Source: Phycisphaerae bacterium
Lineage (GTDB): Bacteria; Planctomycetota; Phycisphaerae; UBA1845
NCBI GenBank assembly: GCA_013360585.1
Contig: JABWBH010000030.1
Span: forward strand, 1 to 52,681
Length of the DNA stretch: 52,681 nt
Direction of reading: 5' to 3'
Under the pieces are notes generated by a model that had not been told where the DNA came from, ran no database searches, and saw nothing but the letters and a program-made list of their open reading frames with translations. Below are positions 42,668-52,680 of this stretch, piece by piece (within the stretch, counting starts at the first letter, position 1; each line of letters begins with the position of its first letter). The position numbers and the translations under genes were made by a program.

Positions 42668-44128
42668 ATGGCTAAGAACAAGACGCCCGAACAGCAGGAC
42701 GGTCCGGATCCCGCGCGTTACGCGGTCAGCGACCTCGACAAGGCGAAAGCCGCGAAGTGGTTCGAACGCGCGTTCGAGTTCGGCAACCGCGACAAAAAAT
42801 ACGACTCCGCGATCGAGTACTACGTTCAGGGGATCAACTTCTGGCCCGACGCGGTCGAGCAGGGACTCAAACCGCTTCACGCCTGTGCGCTGGCGTTCCG
42901 GCAGTCCGGCGGCAAGAAGCCGGGACTGAAGGACACGATGAAGCGGTCGATGACCGCGAAGGATCCGAAGGAAGCCCTGATCAATTCGTTGTGGCTTTTC
43001 GGGCACGAACACGACAATCTCAGCTACGTCGAGGGGGTCCTGAAGAACGCGGACCGGTTGCACGCGGAGGAGTGCCTCATGTGGGCGGCCGGCGTCTACC
43101 GCAAGCTCCTCGATGACGAAAAGAAGCCCAGTACCAAGCGTTACATGCTTTTGAAGGAGACGCTAGAAGGCGCTGCGGACCGCGCGGTCGCGCGCGGAGA
43201 GATTTCCGCAGCCATCGCCGCCCTGGAAGTCGGCGTGCAGGCGCTGTCCGCCTTGGCGCACCGACAGTCCGTCAAGGATCGGGAACTGGAGAACGCCCTG
43301 CGCGACCTGACCACGAAACTGACGATCGTCCGCGGGCGCTATCAGGAAGCCGACTCTTTTCGCGAAAGCATCCGCGACGAGTCGGTCGCGAAGGAGCTTC
43401 ATGACCGCGAGCGCCTCGTTCAGGCCGAGTCCCGCGTCGATGAATTGATCGCCTCGGCACAGAGGGCTTACGACGCTGACCCTGATGACGTTGGAAAACT
43501 GAACATCCTGATTGACCTGCTCTGCCGACGGGAACGCTTCGACGAGGAGTGCAAGGCGATCGGCATCCTTGTCAACCACTTCAAACGGACGGGCAAGTAT
43601 CACGCGAAGCAGAAAGCCGACGAGATCCGCATGAAGCAGCTCCGGCGCGACGTCCGCGCTGCCCGGGACAAGGGCGACGCCGAAGCCCTGCGGGAGTCTC
43701 AGGTCAACCAGATCAAGTTCGAGATGGCGGTCTACAAGGATCGGATGGAGCAGTACCCGACGGACTTGCGCATCAAGTTCGAGTACGCCCAGCGTCTGTT
43801 TCAGGCCGGTCGGTATGACGAAGCGATCCCCCTGCTTCAAGCAGCGCGAAGTGATCCGAAGTCCCGGGCGTCCTGCTCGCTTTATCTGGGGCGGTGTTTC
43901 TACAAAAAAGGCTTCTTTCCGCAGGCGGTCAGCACGCTTTCGGCGGCGCTGGCTGAGCGTGAAATCCAGGATGATGACACGGCGAAGGAAATCGCTTATT
44001 ATCTCGGCCGAGCGCAGGAGTCGGGAGGGCAGGTCACCGACGCGCGGAAGACTTACGGTCGCCTGCTCGAGTTGGATTACAACTACCGGGACGTACGCCA
44101 GCGGCTTGAGTCGCTGCCGCGGCAGTAA
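42668..44128 (+). CDS. TPR-repeat protein, unknown role
   Basis: The ATG at 42668 gives MAKNKTPEQQ; AAGGAG lies too far upstream (about 18 bases), and the frame opens at 42566. The 486-residue cytoplasmic protein has no signal or membrane helix. It is helical throughout, with TPR-like units near 30-75 (AKWFERAFEFGNRDKKYDSA), 285-310 and 385-470 (YAQRLFQAGRYDEAIPLLQA, SLYLGRCFYKKGFFPQAVS), and a charged coiled-coil part at 230-350 rich in Lys, Arg and Glu. Such proteins are common scaffolds in planctomycetes. It is divergent from def and upstream of rpsT. Confidence 0.85.
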   Translation: MAKNKTPEQQDGPDPARYAVSDLDKAKAAKWFERAFEFGNRDKKYDSAIEYYVQGINFWPDAVEQGLKPLHACALAFRQSGGKKPGLKDTMKRSMTAKDPKEALINSLWLFGHEHDNLSYVEGVLKNADRLHAEECLMWAAGVYRKLLDDEKKPSTKRYMLLKETLEGAADRAVARGEISAAIAALEVGVQALSALAHRQSVKDRELENALRDLTTKLTIVRGRYQEADSFRESIRDESVAKELHDRERLVQAESRVDELIASAQRAYDADPDDVGKLNILIDLLCRRERFDEECKAIGILVNHFKRTGKYHAKQKADEIRMKQLRRDVRAARDKGDAEALRESQVNQIKFEMAVYKDRMEQYPTDLRIKFEYAQRLFQAGRYDEAIPLLQAARSDPKSRASCSLYLGRCFYKKGFFPQAVSTLSAALAEREIQDDDTAKEIAYYLGRAQESGGQVTDARKTYGRLLELDYNYRDVRQRLESLPRQ

Positions 44129-49335: not shown

Positions 49336-50571
49336 TTACTGACCAGGCTTAAGCCGATGAATCCCACGTTTGCCAGCGAAATCTCCGGAAACCTCGTATT
49401 CCGCCAGATCGGGGATTTGACCGAGGGTGCTTGCGCCGATTTCCCAACACGCTGCTTCATGTTCGGGACCGACGGCAATCCAGGGCGGAGAAGGCGCGGG
49501 GGGTCGCCCTTCCGCCACGGCGTCGCCGAAGACGCAACGGCGCAGGACGCGCACCCCGGGTTCGATTTCGACGATCCCAGATGATGTGCCGCTCGACTCG
49601 GCCCAGCCTCGACTGACGGCACAGCGCGGGTGAAACCGGCAACCAGCGGGGTACGCCGTGGGGAGCGGGACGCGCCCCGGGATCGTGCGCAAGCGCTGCG
49701 CCCCCGCAACGCCCGGGCGCGGAATGCATTCGAGCAGCGCCCGGGTATACGGGTGACAGGGATGTGACATCACGAAGGACGTCGGTCCGCGCTCGACGAT
49801 CCGACCGGCGTACATCACCGCGACGTCGTCCGCCGCCTCCGCGACGACGCCGAAGTCGTGCGTGATCAGAAGAATCGCTGGCCCCGTGTCGCGCTGCACA
49901 TCGCGCAGCAGGCGCAGCACCTGCGCCTGGACCGAGGCGTCCAGCGCCGTGGTCGGCTCGTCCGCGACGAGCACGTCAGGCTCACACGCCAGCGCCGCGG
50001 CAATCATCGCCCGCTGCCTCATGCCTCCGGAAAGCTCGTGCGGATAACGCCTCGCGCACGATTTCGCCGGCTCCAGTCCGACGCGCGCCAACCAGCACTC
50101 GACGCGTTCGTCCGTGGCGCTGCGTCCGGTCTTCAAGTGTCGTCGGACTCCTTCCGCCGCCTGCTCCCCGATCGTTTTCAGCGGATGCAGCGATGTCATC
50201 GGCTCCTGAAAGATCATCCCGATCCGCCCCCCGCGCACGTCCGCCAGCGCGCGTTCCGGAAGCGCCGCGACATCGACGGCTTGCTCCTTCGCATCGCGCG
50301 GCCGCAATACGATCGAACCTGAGGCGATCCGCAGCGTCCGTCGCGGAAGAAGCCGGAGGAGACTCAGCGCCGTCACGCTCTTTCCGCATCCGCTCTCGCC
50401 GACCAGCGCAAGCGTGCGCCCGGCGTGAAGCGCAAAGCTGATGTCGCTGACCAGTTCGACCGGCGCGCCTTCGTCCGAGGCGACGACGGTAAGCCCGTGA
50501 ACCTCAAGCATCGGGCCGTCCGGTGTGGATGAGAGCTCCGGAGGTCGGTGCGAATCAAGGCGCGTCGTCAT
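49336..50571 (-). CDS. oligopeptide/dipeptide ABC transporter ATP-binding protein
   Basis: ATG with GGAG seven bases upstream. The 411-residue protein has Walker A GESGCGKS (58-65), Q-loop in MIFQEPMTSLHPL, signature LSGGMRQR, Walker B DVLVADEPTTALD and the H-loop His in THDFG. The C-terminal oligopeptide-binding-type extension has CHPYTRALLECIP and YPAGCRFHPRC, typical of OppD/DppD. Residues 350-411 are an added tail beyond the usual about 330. It powers peptide or nickel-type uptake, but no permease or binding protein is beside it. The first 17 bases overlap the upstream pilin-like gene. Confidence 0.93.
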   Translation of the reverse strand: MTTRLDSHRPPELSSTPDGPMLEVHGLTVVASDEGAPVELVSDISFALHAGRTLALVGESGCGKSVTALSLLRLLPRRTLRIASGSIVLRPRDAKEQAVDVAALPERALADVRGGRIGMIFQEPMTSLHPLKTIGEQAAEGVRRHLKTGRSATDERVECWLARVGLEPAKSCARRYPHELSGGMRQRAMIAAALACEPDVLVADEPTTALDASVQAQVLRLLRDVQRDTGPAILLITHDFGVVAEAADDVAVMYAGRIVERGPTSFVMSHPCHPYTRALLECIPRPGVAGAQRLRTIPGRVPLPTAYPAGCRFHPRCAVSRGWAESSGTSSGIVEIEPGVRVLRRCVFGDAVAEGRPPAPSPPWIAVGPEHEAACWEIGASTLGQIPDLAEYEVSGDFAGKRGIHRLKPGQ

Positions 50572-51070
50572 TGCGAGGCTCCGTCGACGGCTGCGACGCC
50601 AGAAAGAGGCGGACGCGCTCCCGATCCGACTCGATCCGCGACAGATAATTCCCCTTCATCAGGAATTCCGCGTGTCCGTCCGAATAAAGGACGGCTCCGC
50701 CTTCATCGCCGTGGTTCCCCAGCGGCTCCACGACGATGATGTGGGGGAAGGGGACGGTCGCGGCCGGGAGGATCACGCGATCATATCCTCCGCCGCTGCG
50801 CGGGCACCGCAATGCCTCAAGCGAGGCTTCGCCGGCATGAAACGCCTTCAGATTCCGGCAGCAATCCACCCGTCGTTGAAACTCCCGCGCAGGCGCAAAA
50901 GCATACGCCAGCACCGCCAGCACCGTCAGACACAGGACCGCAATGCGCACGATCTGGCCGCGACGTGAAATCCTCTGCGGTGCGTCTGCTGATTCCGAAG
51001 CGGGGACGGACACTTTCGACGATGCCTCTGCGTTGATTGCGGACGAATCCTGTCGACGAGACTCGATCAT
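50555..51070 (-). CDS. DUF1559-like (H-Xn-DG) membrane protein
   Basis: ATG at 51070 chosen; a TTG at 51094 is possible. The 171-residue protein has a basic, Ser-rich N-terminus, one membrane helix at about 40-60 (IVRIAVLCLTVLAVLAYAF), then CCRNLKAFHAG, LRCPRSGGG and NHGDEGGAVLYSDGHAEFL, the His-X10-Asp-Gly pattern of planctomycete DUF1559/general-secretion-like proteins. It lacks the type IV pilin cleavage site and is shorter than typical members (about 300). It overlaps the ABC ATPase start by 17 bases. Function unknown. Confidence 0.7.
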   Translation of the reverse strand: MIESRRQDSSAINAEASSKVSVPASESADAPQRISRRGQIVRIAVLCLTVLAVLAYAFAPAREFQRRVDCCRNLKAFHAGEASLEALRCPRSGGGYDRVILPAATVPFPHIIVVEPLGNHGDEGGAVLYSDGHAEFLMKGNYLSRIESDRERVRLFLASQPSTEPRNDDAP

Positions 51071-51299
51071 CCGGGCCCGACATGACGCCGTCAACGACGC
51101 ATCAAGCCTGAAGCTGGAGGGAGCGCCGCAACAGCTTCAAACTGTCCGGCTTCTCGCGGCGCGCGCAGCGTCGTTCGCAACTTCCTTCAAGATCGAGGCT
51201 TGTGTCACACGCCCACCTGCGACCCGGTTAGCGGATGCGTAGACCGCTGAGTCTGATATGAACCGAGGGGGAATACCGCTGTTAACCTCAAAAAAGGGG

Positions 51300-51328
51300 T
51301 TGACGTTCGAATTCGGCGTCGCTAGTAT
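51300..51328 (+). promoter_or_regulatory. strong sigma-70-like promoter in a gene-free gap
   Basis: TTGACG (51300-51305), 17-base spacer, TAGTAT (51323-51328). The 401-bp gap between the DUF1559-like start and the permease end holds no other gene. It reads away from both neighbours' strands into the hairpin below. Confidence 0.65.
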
Positions 51329-51334
51329 TCCGTG

Positions 51335-51408
51335 TGTTGGGCTTAAGGCGCCTCGATCCCGGGGGGCACGGCGCTTCACGCGTCGTCGGGCGGGGCGCCT
51401 CCTTTTTT
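51335..51408 (+). ncRNA. candidate orphan small RNA with intrinsic terminator
   Basis: From the expected start about 51335, a transcript of about 74 nt would contain AGGCGCC (51346-51352) pairing with GGCGCCT (51394-51400). The helix extends inward (three more pairs, a 2-base bulge, then four more) to about 14 bp. CC and six T (51403-51408) follow. No ribosome site or supported reading frame lies within. Promoter, stem and T tract are all visible; function is not. Confidence 0.55.
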
Positions 51409-51471: not shown

Positions 51472-52680
51472 TCATTCCCGACGAAGCGCCGCGACGATTT
51501 CACTTCGAGTCACCTGGCGTGTAACCAGTGTGCAGGTGATCCACGTCACCAGTCCGATCGCCGCGGCGACGCCCGCCGCACTCCACAGCCGCACAGACGG
51601 AGGGTCGTCCAGCAGGCGCGGCAGGACGGCCGCCGTCGCCGCCGCCAGTCCGATCAAAAGCCCCTGCATCGCCAGCGCCACATGTTCAATCACCATCAAC
51701 CGTCTCAGCATCGAAGGCTCATACCCGACGGCTCTCATCAGCGCCAGCTCGGACCGACGTTCAAGGATGTTCCGCGCCGTTCCGACCGCCAGCCCGAGCG
51801 TCCCGAGGATCAGCCCGAACCCGCCAACCGCTTGAAACGTCGAGAGATACGTGTTCTGCACTTCAAGAAACGCCTTCAGGCGCGCCTGCACGGGTTCAGC
51901 GTCGAACGAGAAGCGGCGCAGATCTCCTTCCAGCACGGTCCTCAGCTCCGACGCGATTTCTCTCGGCGCATCGATGAGGAAAAAAGCGTGGCCTGCCGAG
52001 GTCGGGAAAAGGCGTCGGAACGCGGCGTCGCTGATCATCAGTTCGCTTTGCAGCGCGCTGCCCTTCAGCAGCGCGACGAACCGCAGTTTTGTCGGGCGCC
52101 CCGCCTCGTCTTCAATGACGATCTCACGTCCCAGCCCGGAATGAAGCTGCCACCGCACCGCGTTCTCGTCACCGATGACCGGAACGACTCCGTCATCGAG
52201 CGGCTTGCTCAACAAAGACCACAACGCCTCAGGAGACGCATCGGGCGCTTCGTTCGCCCGGATGGTGAAGGCGCCGCGCTGCATGAAGCGCTCATCCACG
52301 CCGAGGATGCGCGGGCGTGTCGGGACATAAAGACTCGTGCAGCTTGTCTCATCCCCCGAGAGGAGGCGGAAGGGGAAAACCTGCGCCCCGTCGAGCAGCT
52401 TGCGGGTCGGCAGCGACAGGCCGAGCGACTCCCAGCCAGCCGGCGTCGCCAGATCATGCAGCAGAGGCGTCTCGCACTCCGCAACCAGTTCGAAGCCTCC
52501 GGCCGCCCCCGTCACCTCGTCGCGATCGTCCGGCGCCTGACGGAAGGCCTGAATTGAGACGACGAGAAACGTCGCCGAGGCGATCAGCGCGACGGTCGTC
52601 ATGCTGCGCCCCGGGTGTCGCGCCGCGTTCCGCGCCGCAAGCGCGAACGTCACGCCCGGGGCTGCCCGCGCGCCCAGCCG
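51472..52680 (-). CDS. FtsX-family ABC permease, C-terminal part (5' end outside window)
   Basis: The frame is open to the window edge, so the GTG at 52653 need not be the start. About 403 residues are seen. NAARHPGRSMTTVALIASATFLVV (first helix) marks the start of the second half of two-part FtsX permeases. A periplasmic MacB-like domain lies at about 40-260 (LVAECETPLLHDL, FRLLSGDETSC), and three membrane helices at about 280-390 carry ERRSELALMRAVGY, the family's coupling-loop motif. The matching ATPase and the N-terminal half must lie beyond the edge. Likely a lipoprotein or macrolide-type transport system. Confidence 0.88.
   Translation of the reverse strand, partial: RLGARAAPGVTFALAARNAARHPGRSMTTVALIASATFLVVSIQAFRQAPDDRDEVTGAAGGFELVAECETPLLHDLATPAGWESLGLSLPTRKLLDGAQVFPFRLLSGDETSCTSLYVPTRPRILGVDERFMQRGAFTIRANEAPDASPEALWSLLSKPLDDGVVPVIGDENAVRWQLHSGLGREIVIEDEAGRPTKLRFVALLKGSALQSELMISDAAFRRLFPTSAGHAFFLIDAPREIASELRTVLEGDLRRFSFDAEPVQARLKAFLEVQNTYLSTFQAVGGFGLILGTLGLAVGTARNILERRSELALMRAVGYEPSMLRRLMVIEHVALAMQGLLIGLAAATAAVLPRLLDDPPSVRLWSAAGVAAAIGLVTWITCTLVTRQVTRSEIVAALRRE

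Follow-up and report, generated by a model that had tools for sequence, protein, structure and literature searches.

The window, i.e., the whole stretch of 52,681 nucleotides that was analysed, comes from the genome of a Phycisphaerae bacterium (G000; 4.24 Mb in 84 contigs), with which three congeneric species (G001, G002, and G003) were compared. The region of interest lies between two genes of the minus strand (Table 1). The upstream neighbour codes for an FtsX-type permease and the downstream one is a 179-aa frame, whose relatives were found at two loci only in a pattern scan of genome contigs, i.e., in the assemblies of Planctomycetota bacterium BroJett003 and Phycisphaerae bacterium Bin_14R. 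Its SDGHAEFL stretch is reminiscent of planctomycete DUF1559 proteins. The first-pass annotation had placed an orphan transcription unit on the plus strand of this gap, and all of the parts it listed (TTGACG-N17-TAGTAT, a further 17 nt, a hairpin, and T6) are present at positions 51300-51408. The unit is also an orphan according to a simple codon-based gene caller, with the closest plus-strand gene upstream ending at 44128. Two of the dimensions given earlier hold in part. The gap of 401 bp is obtained (about 401) with a later start of the downstream gene, but it measures 377 bp with the start at TTG 51094. The stem of about 14 bp describes the outer two helices (10 + 4 bp) but not the whole hairpin, which has 21 pairs.

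Table 1. Features of the predicted small RNA gene and its flanking genes in the window
Feature	Position	Strand	Remark
179-aa frame, next (downstream) gene	50555-51094	-	no Pfam match
TCAAAAAAGGGG, A-tract just 5' of the -35	51288..51299	+	possible UP element (putative role)
-35-like element TTGACG	51300..51305	+	same in G001 and G003
-10-like element TAGTAT	51323..51328	+	TAGTAT in G003, TAGCAT in G001
Start region and 5' leader	51329..51345	+	predicted start near 51335
Hairpin, 21 pairs	51346-51400	+	helices of 10 bp + 4 bp + 7 bp, bulges on the 5' side
Helix P1, 5' strand	51346..51355	+	partner 51391-51400
Helix P2, 5' strand (CCCG)	51358..51361	+	partner 51387-51390
Conserved G-rich bulge GGGGGC	51362..51367	+	proposed working surface
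Hairpin P3	51368..51386	+	apical loop UUCAC at 51375-51379
P2 and P1, 3' strands	51387..51400	+	
CC + T6	51401..51408	+	U-tract of the intrinsic terminator
FtsX-type permease gene (upstream neighbour)	51472-52653	-	

At the sequence level the unit has a promoter-like pair of its own (TTGACG-17-TAGTAT) and an intrinsic terminator of its own (hairpin, CC, and T6), both of which are conserved. With ends at about 51335 and 51408 the predicted RNA would be 73-75 nt long, in agreement with the 70-80 nt estimated before. In predicted folds a GG of the leader is able to pair with the CC at 51401-51402.

Taken alone, the window sequence is merely suggestive, and its pattern is modestly above chance. 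In 2.7 kb, two promoter-like sites (including that of the window) were observed where 0.1 was expected, and the score of the window promoter was equalled in 9 of 500 local shuffles. Terminator-like sites numbered three against 2.2 expected in the same 2.7 kb, and the window fold was not stabler than its shuffles (z -0.81; 47 of 200 equally good). It is the conservation and covariation, not the single sequence, that make the unit clearly more than chance.

The locus is common to three of the species (G000, G001, and G003), each of which was found to have one such copy, here called type A, at the same place. The hairpin at 51346-51400 is identical at 55/55 positions in all three species pairs. 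The block from the A-tract to the -10 is identical at 39/40, 39/41, and 37/40 positions, so that 1-3 substitutions separate the species over these 41 nt, together with a single gap wherever G001 is one of the pair. Conservation is lower around these parts, with 129/145, 98/145, and 91/145 identical positions (89, 68, and 63%) in the 5' flank, 54/63, 48/63, and 48/63 (86, 76, and 76%) in the 3' flank, and 12-14 of 17 (3-5 differences) in the leader. The A-tract TCAAAAAAGGGG is retained in G003 and G001, with one base missing ahead of it in G001. In G002, four related hairpins (copies a-d) are dispersed on four contigs, and the rest of the block had no match in that genome. All three congeners thus carry the block or copies of it, and its absence from all relatives, against which the first-pass annotation had staked its proposal, was not observed.

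The comparison also supports the structure itself. Across six distinct sequences, 96% of the paired cells are kept as pairs, and 5 of the 21 pairs have changed on both sides. The shuffles averaged 1.7 such changes and none of 500 reached five; controls with slid partners gave 0-1. Two of these pairs lie in P1 and P2 together and three in P3 (3/7 pairs). One of the five covariation measures, the number of further pair types, was not above the shuffles (7 vs. 7.5; 470/500). The check by conservation and covariation proposed earlier had the result that the congeners carry the hairpin or copies of it and that the stem changes are compensatory.

The promoter-like sequences of the family are of unequal quality. 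Over all ten units (the type B units described below included), the best score was 9 of 12 in seven and 8, 7, and 6 in the others, although orthologues are not independent in this count. Copies a-d of G002 scored 6, 7, 8, and 9 of 12, which was equalled by 418, 144, 50, and 3 of 500 shuffles, respectively; among these four, the promoter of copy d alone stands out and those of a-c are weak. The promoter-like pair is placed 15-17 nt ahead of the hairpin in six of the seven type A copies; in the seventh it is 14 nt ahead and no better than chance. Tracts resembling the A-tract (CTCAAAAAA and CTCAAGAAAAA) occur upstream of copies c and d. As a separate observation, copies a and b (L033 and L034, about 1400-1530) have related upstream sequence in common, in which a second promoter-like pair, TTGATT-18-TAAAAT, was seen by eye; a start from this pair would yield a longer RNA with an additional 5' domain.

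The gene neighbours are not the same from one copy of the unit to another, those of the four G002 copies being unrelated genes, which argues against a role as a leader or in cis. The unit of the window is opposite in strand to both of its neighbours and would be complementary to any message that reads through it, and could thus be seen as an antisense RNA acting in cis, either on the FtsX-permease mRNA at its 3' end or on the leader of the next minus-strand gene downstream. However, the four structured copies of G002 adjoin unrelated genes, and the compensatory changes keep a structure that antisense pairing does not need. This explanation is considered quite unlikely.

A second kind of unit, type B, was found by means of a search with model R1 together with the exact 14-mer CGGGGGGCACGGCG, which is common to types A and B and spans the G-rich bulge. 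The R1 alignment omits the type A copy of G003, which is identical to that of G000 over that stretch. Type B is located on contig C73 of G000, C16 of G001, and C10 of G003; it was not found in G002 by the model searches and the 14-mer scan. Its hairpin is identical at 67/67 positions in the three species, with pairwise identities of 46 to 93% in the flanks. The promoter-like pair consists of TTGACC or TTGACG, 17 nt, and GATAGT, the last of which lies 8 nt before the stem, and the unit ends in T6. In G000 and G001 the unit lies between two convergent genes, one for cytochrome c assembly and one for an FGGY kinase, and the FGGY kinase gene adjoins one side of it in G003. The type B fold is stabler than its shuffles (z -2.74; 4 of 200 equally good). 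In the alignment with type B, both sides had changed in 11 of 21 pairs, a figure that leans towards structure because the alignment was fitted to the model of type A. Upstream of type B, at a distance of about 100 nt, the three species have a second well-conserved block (L071 about 886-960, C73 of G000); it combines a stretch of the form TTCCCA..GAGAGAATCAGGCAAC..ACC with a small hairpin, CTCGTTTT..GCGAG, and may be another element.

The kinship of the two types is not proved by R1 alone, because the 20.5 bits of type B were exceeded by two terminators of ordinary appearance from other genera (30.1 and 23.3 bits). It rests on the shared 14-mer CGGGGGGCACGGCG and the common layout. The exact 14-mer (with C or T as last but one base) occurs 14 times in the four genomes. 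Seven of these copies belong to type A or B units, all with a T-run; the other seven have no T5 within 80 nt. Copies with one mismatch are common, at most about twice as frequent as in the reversed control. None of the 19 one-mismatch copies read in G000, G002, and G003 precedes a T-run by eye, and the others were read in part. Further diverged members of the family may exist.

As far as searched, the family appears to be confined to one genus of Phycisphaerae, and the support for it, which comes from four genomes, is shallow. With the combined model R2 (its alignment omits type B of G003), all ten strong matches (E 1.5e-13 or better) fell in the four genomes of the genus. These were 4 of 40 genomes in one search and 4 of 51 in a search of the family, where the other 47 reached E 8.8e-5 at best. 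Over 392 genomes of the phylum, three had a match at E <= 0.01, i.e., the window's own genome and two weak ones (G178 and G330), and there was no strong match among the 391 other genomes sampled. With R1, 47 of 120 relatives had a match at E <= 1; strong matches were confined to the genus, and the best outside it had E 2.4e-5. Diverged relatives may have been missed, since the R1 and R2 searches scored part of the first-look candidates and those of the 120 relatives, the phylum, and the family were filtered more strictly. None of the 16 loci with weak R1 matches that were inspected by sequence was member-like (L044, L045, L047, and L050 were among those left out). Five loci (L041, L046, L158, L159, and L160) were read by eye together with their flanks, and the bulge layout was present in none of them.

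In two of these five, L041 and L046 from other genera, the hairpin is a terminator that follows an open frame, and both score with the same model. This raises the question of whether the hairpin of the window is simply a transcription terminator or insulator, which would end read-through or antisense transcription coming from the left, with an incidental promoter-like sequence. The hairpin does have the form of an intrinsic terminator, and some of the G002 promoters are weak. On the other hand, no plus-strand gene able to own a terminator was called over 7 kb upstream, and the promoter block stays identical at 37-39 of 40-41 positions while the leader and flanks vary. The invariant G-rich bulge would not be needed either, L041 and L046 do without it, and the four copies of G002 have different neighbours. 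A role as terminator or insulator alone is regarded as unlikely.

The four dispersed copies in G002, with a and b having related upstream sequence, could also suggest a REP-like DNA element, small and dispersed or mobile, in which the hairpin is there by chance. This is extremely improbable, as a single type A copy was found, at the same place, in each of the other three genomes, the U-tracts are retained, and neither blastn against plasmids and phages nor an exact pattern of 21 bases in viral contigs gave a match.

Based on these results, a stand-alone, intrinsically terminated small RNA (sRNA) that acts in trans and belongs to a genus-restricted family is very probably the correct reading of the locus. 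The first-pass annotation had also proposed a small regulatory RNA, and this appears to be the best fit to the promoter-like pair, the U-tract, the conserved covarying structure, and the paralogues beside unrelated genes, all of which favour an sRNA that is 73-75 nt long and acts in trans. The block would be an sRNA gene (about 51335-51408, plus strand) transcribed from its own sigma70-type promoter and ended by its own hairpin and U-tract. The family would comprise type A, i.e., the window locus and the four dispersed copies of G002, and type B, the second locus of three species. The RNA would act as a rigid bulged hairpin presenting a single near-invariant exposed element, GGGGGC, by which it may contact a C-rich mRNA site or a protein.

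In the predicted folds, the most conserved exposed feature is this G-rich bulge inside the stem. Nine of the ten units have GGGGGC at this place, and copy a of G002 has AGGGGC. Its predicted exposure varies among the members. All six bases are exposed in the window copy (unpaired probability 0.67-0.96) and in copy d of G002; in copies a, b, and c about four are exposed and the last G and C are paired. In type B two G are free, two G are mostly paired, and the last GC is paired. The bulge most likely serves in one of two ways, about equally probable: as a short G-rich seed that pairs with C-rich parts of mRNAs, or as a site for protein binding. It can tentatively be suggested that the family represents a class of minimal regulatory RNA, a 'bulge-seed' or protein decoy, which consists of little more than its terminator hairpin and works through the near-invariant GGGGGC bulge, with two divergent types, four copies in one species, and no involvement of Hfq. 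For Hfq, none of the four genomes was above the cut-off of PF17209; two weak matches lay inside open frames of about 490 aa. A structural switch, with the bulge (xGGGGC) pairing with the six bases before the U-tract, was also considered. The two are complementary at 6/6 positions in five of six distinct members and at 5/6 at best in copy d of G002, and in the predicted type A folds the leader takes up the C's that precede the U-tract. This possibility was not retained.

RNAs that sequester CsrA (CsrB/RsmZ-like) carry repeated exposed GGA motifs. There are 2-3 CsrA genes per genome in G000-G003. No GGA occurs in the window RNA (51336-51408), the G002 copies have one or two (in the leader, and in the loop of b and d), and type B has one, in the stem. 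Titration of CsrA is not favoured, given the lack of GGA in the window RNA.

Within the preferred reading of a trans-acting sRNA, one mechanism to be weighed is that of a 6S-like RNA, which would bind RNA polymerase and replace 6S in the genus. 6S RNA is a hairpin with an interior unpaired region in the form of a large central bubble. The RNA described here is likewise a long bulged hairpin, and no match to 6S (RF00013) was obtained in the four genomes at E <= 1. The missing match does not show that 6S is absent from the genus, since the control was positive in 6 of 14 genomes. Moreover, the length of the RNA is far below the 187 model positions of 6S, and it has a small one-sided bulge instead of the central bubble. 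Such a function is highly improbable.

The family appears to be new, whereas the kind of molecule, an intrinsically terminated sRNA, is already known. Rfam 15 gave no match at the gathering threshold in the window, in six type A loci (G001, G002, and G003), or in three type B loci. Three weak cmscan matches, to two sRNA families and one microRNA family, were at chance level; of the two sRNA families, both from Burkholderia, ncS54 (RF02871) reached 13.7 bits (gathering threshold 43, E 1.3) and BcKCsr2 (RF02883) reached 12.3 bits (gathering threshold 40, E 1.5). The family shares a promoter-like sequence, short length, an intrinsic terminator, and structural conservation with the intergenic, intrinsically terminated trans-acting sRNAs of bacteria in general. 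It differs from them in being almost without a single-stranded seed region, in having its candidate active site in a bulge within the terminator hairpin, and in the lack of an Hfq over the cut-off. The cuckoo RNAs of alphaproteobacteria are short multi-copy hairpin sRNAs with a very short, near-invariant exposed motif, which is C-rich (anti-Shine-Dalgarno) and located in loops. By this general description the two families are alike in being short multi-copy hairpins with an exposed motif, but the motif of the new family is G-rich and lies in a one-sided bulge.

Among the matches listed in a search of mostly freely accessible literature on planctomycete sRNAs, no title dealt with sRNAs of this group. 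In a table of a 2022 review (PMC9029176), eight distinct Rfam sRNA families are given for the PVC group vs. 345 for Proteobacteria, and judging from that table the small RNAs of planctomycetes seem to be little charted. The family described here is a concrete one that is supported by covariation. Its 5' and 3' ends have been predicted, it includes paralogues, and it offers one candidate active site, which makes it amenable to testing by plain RNA-seq.
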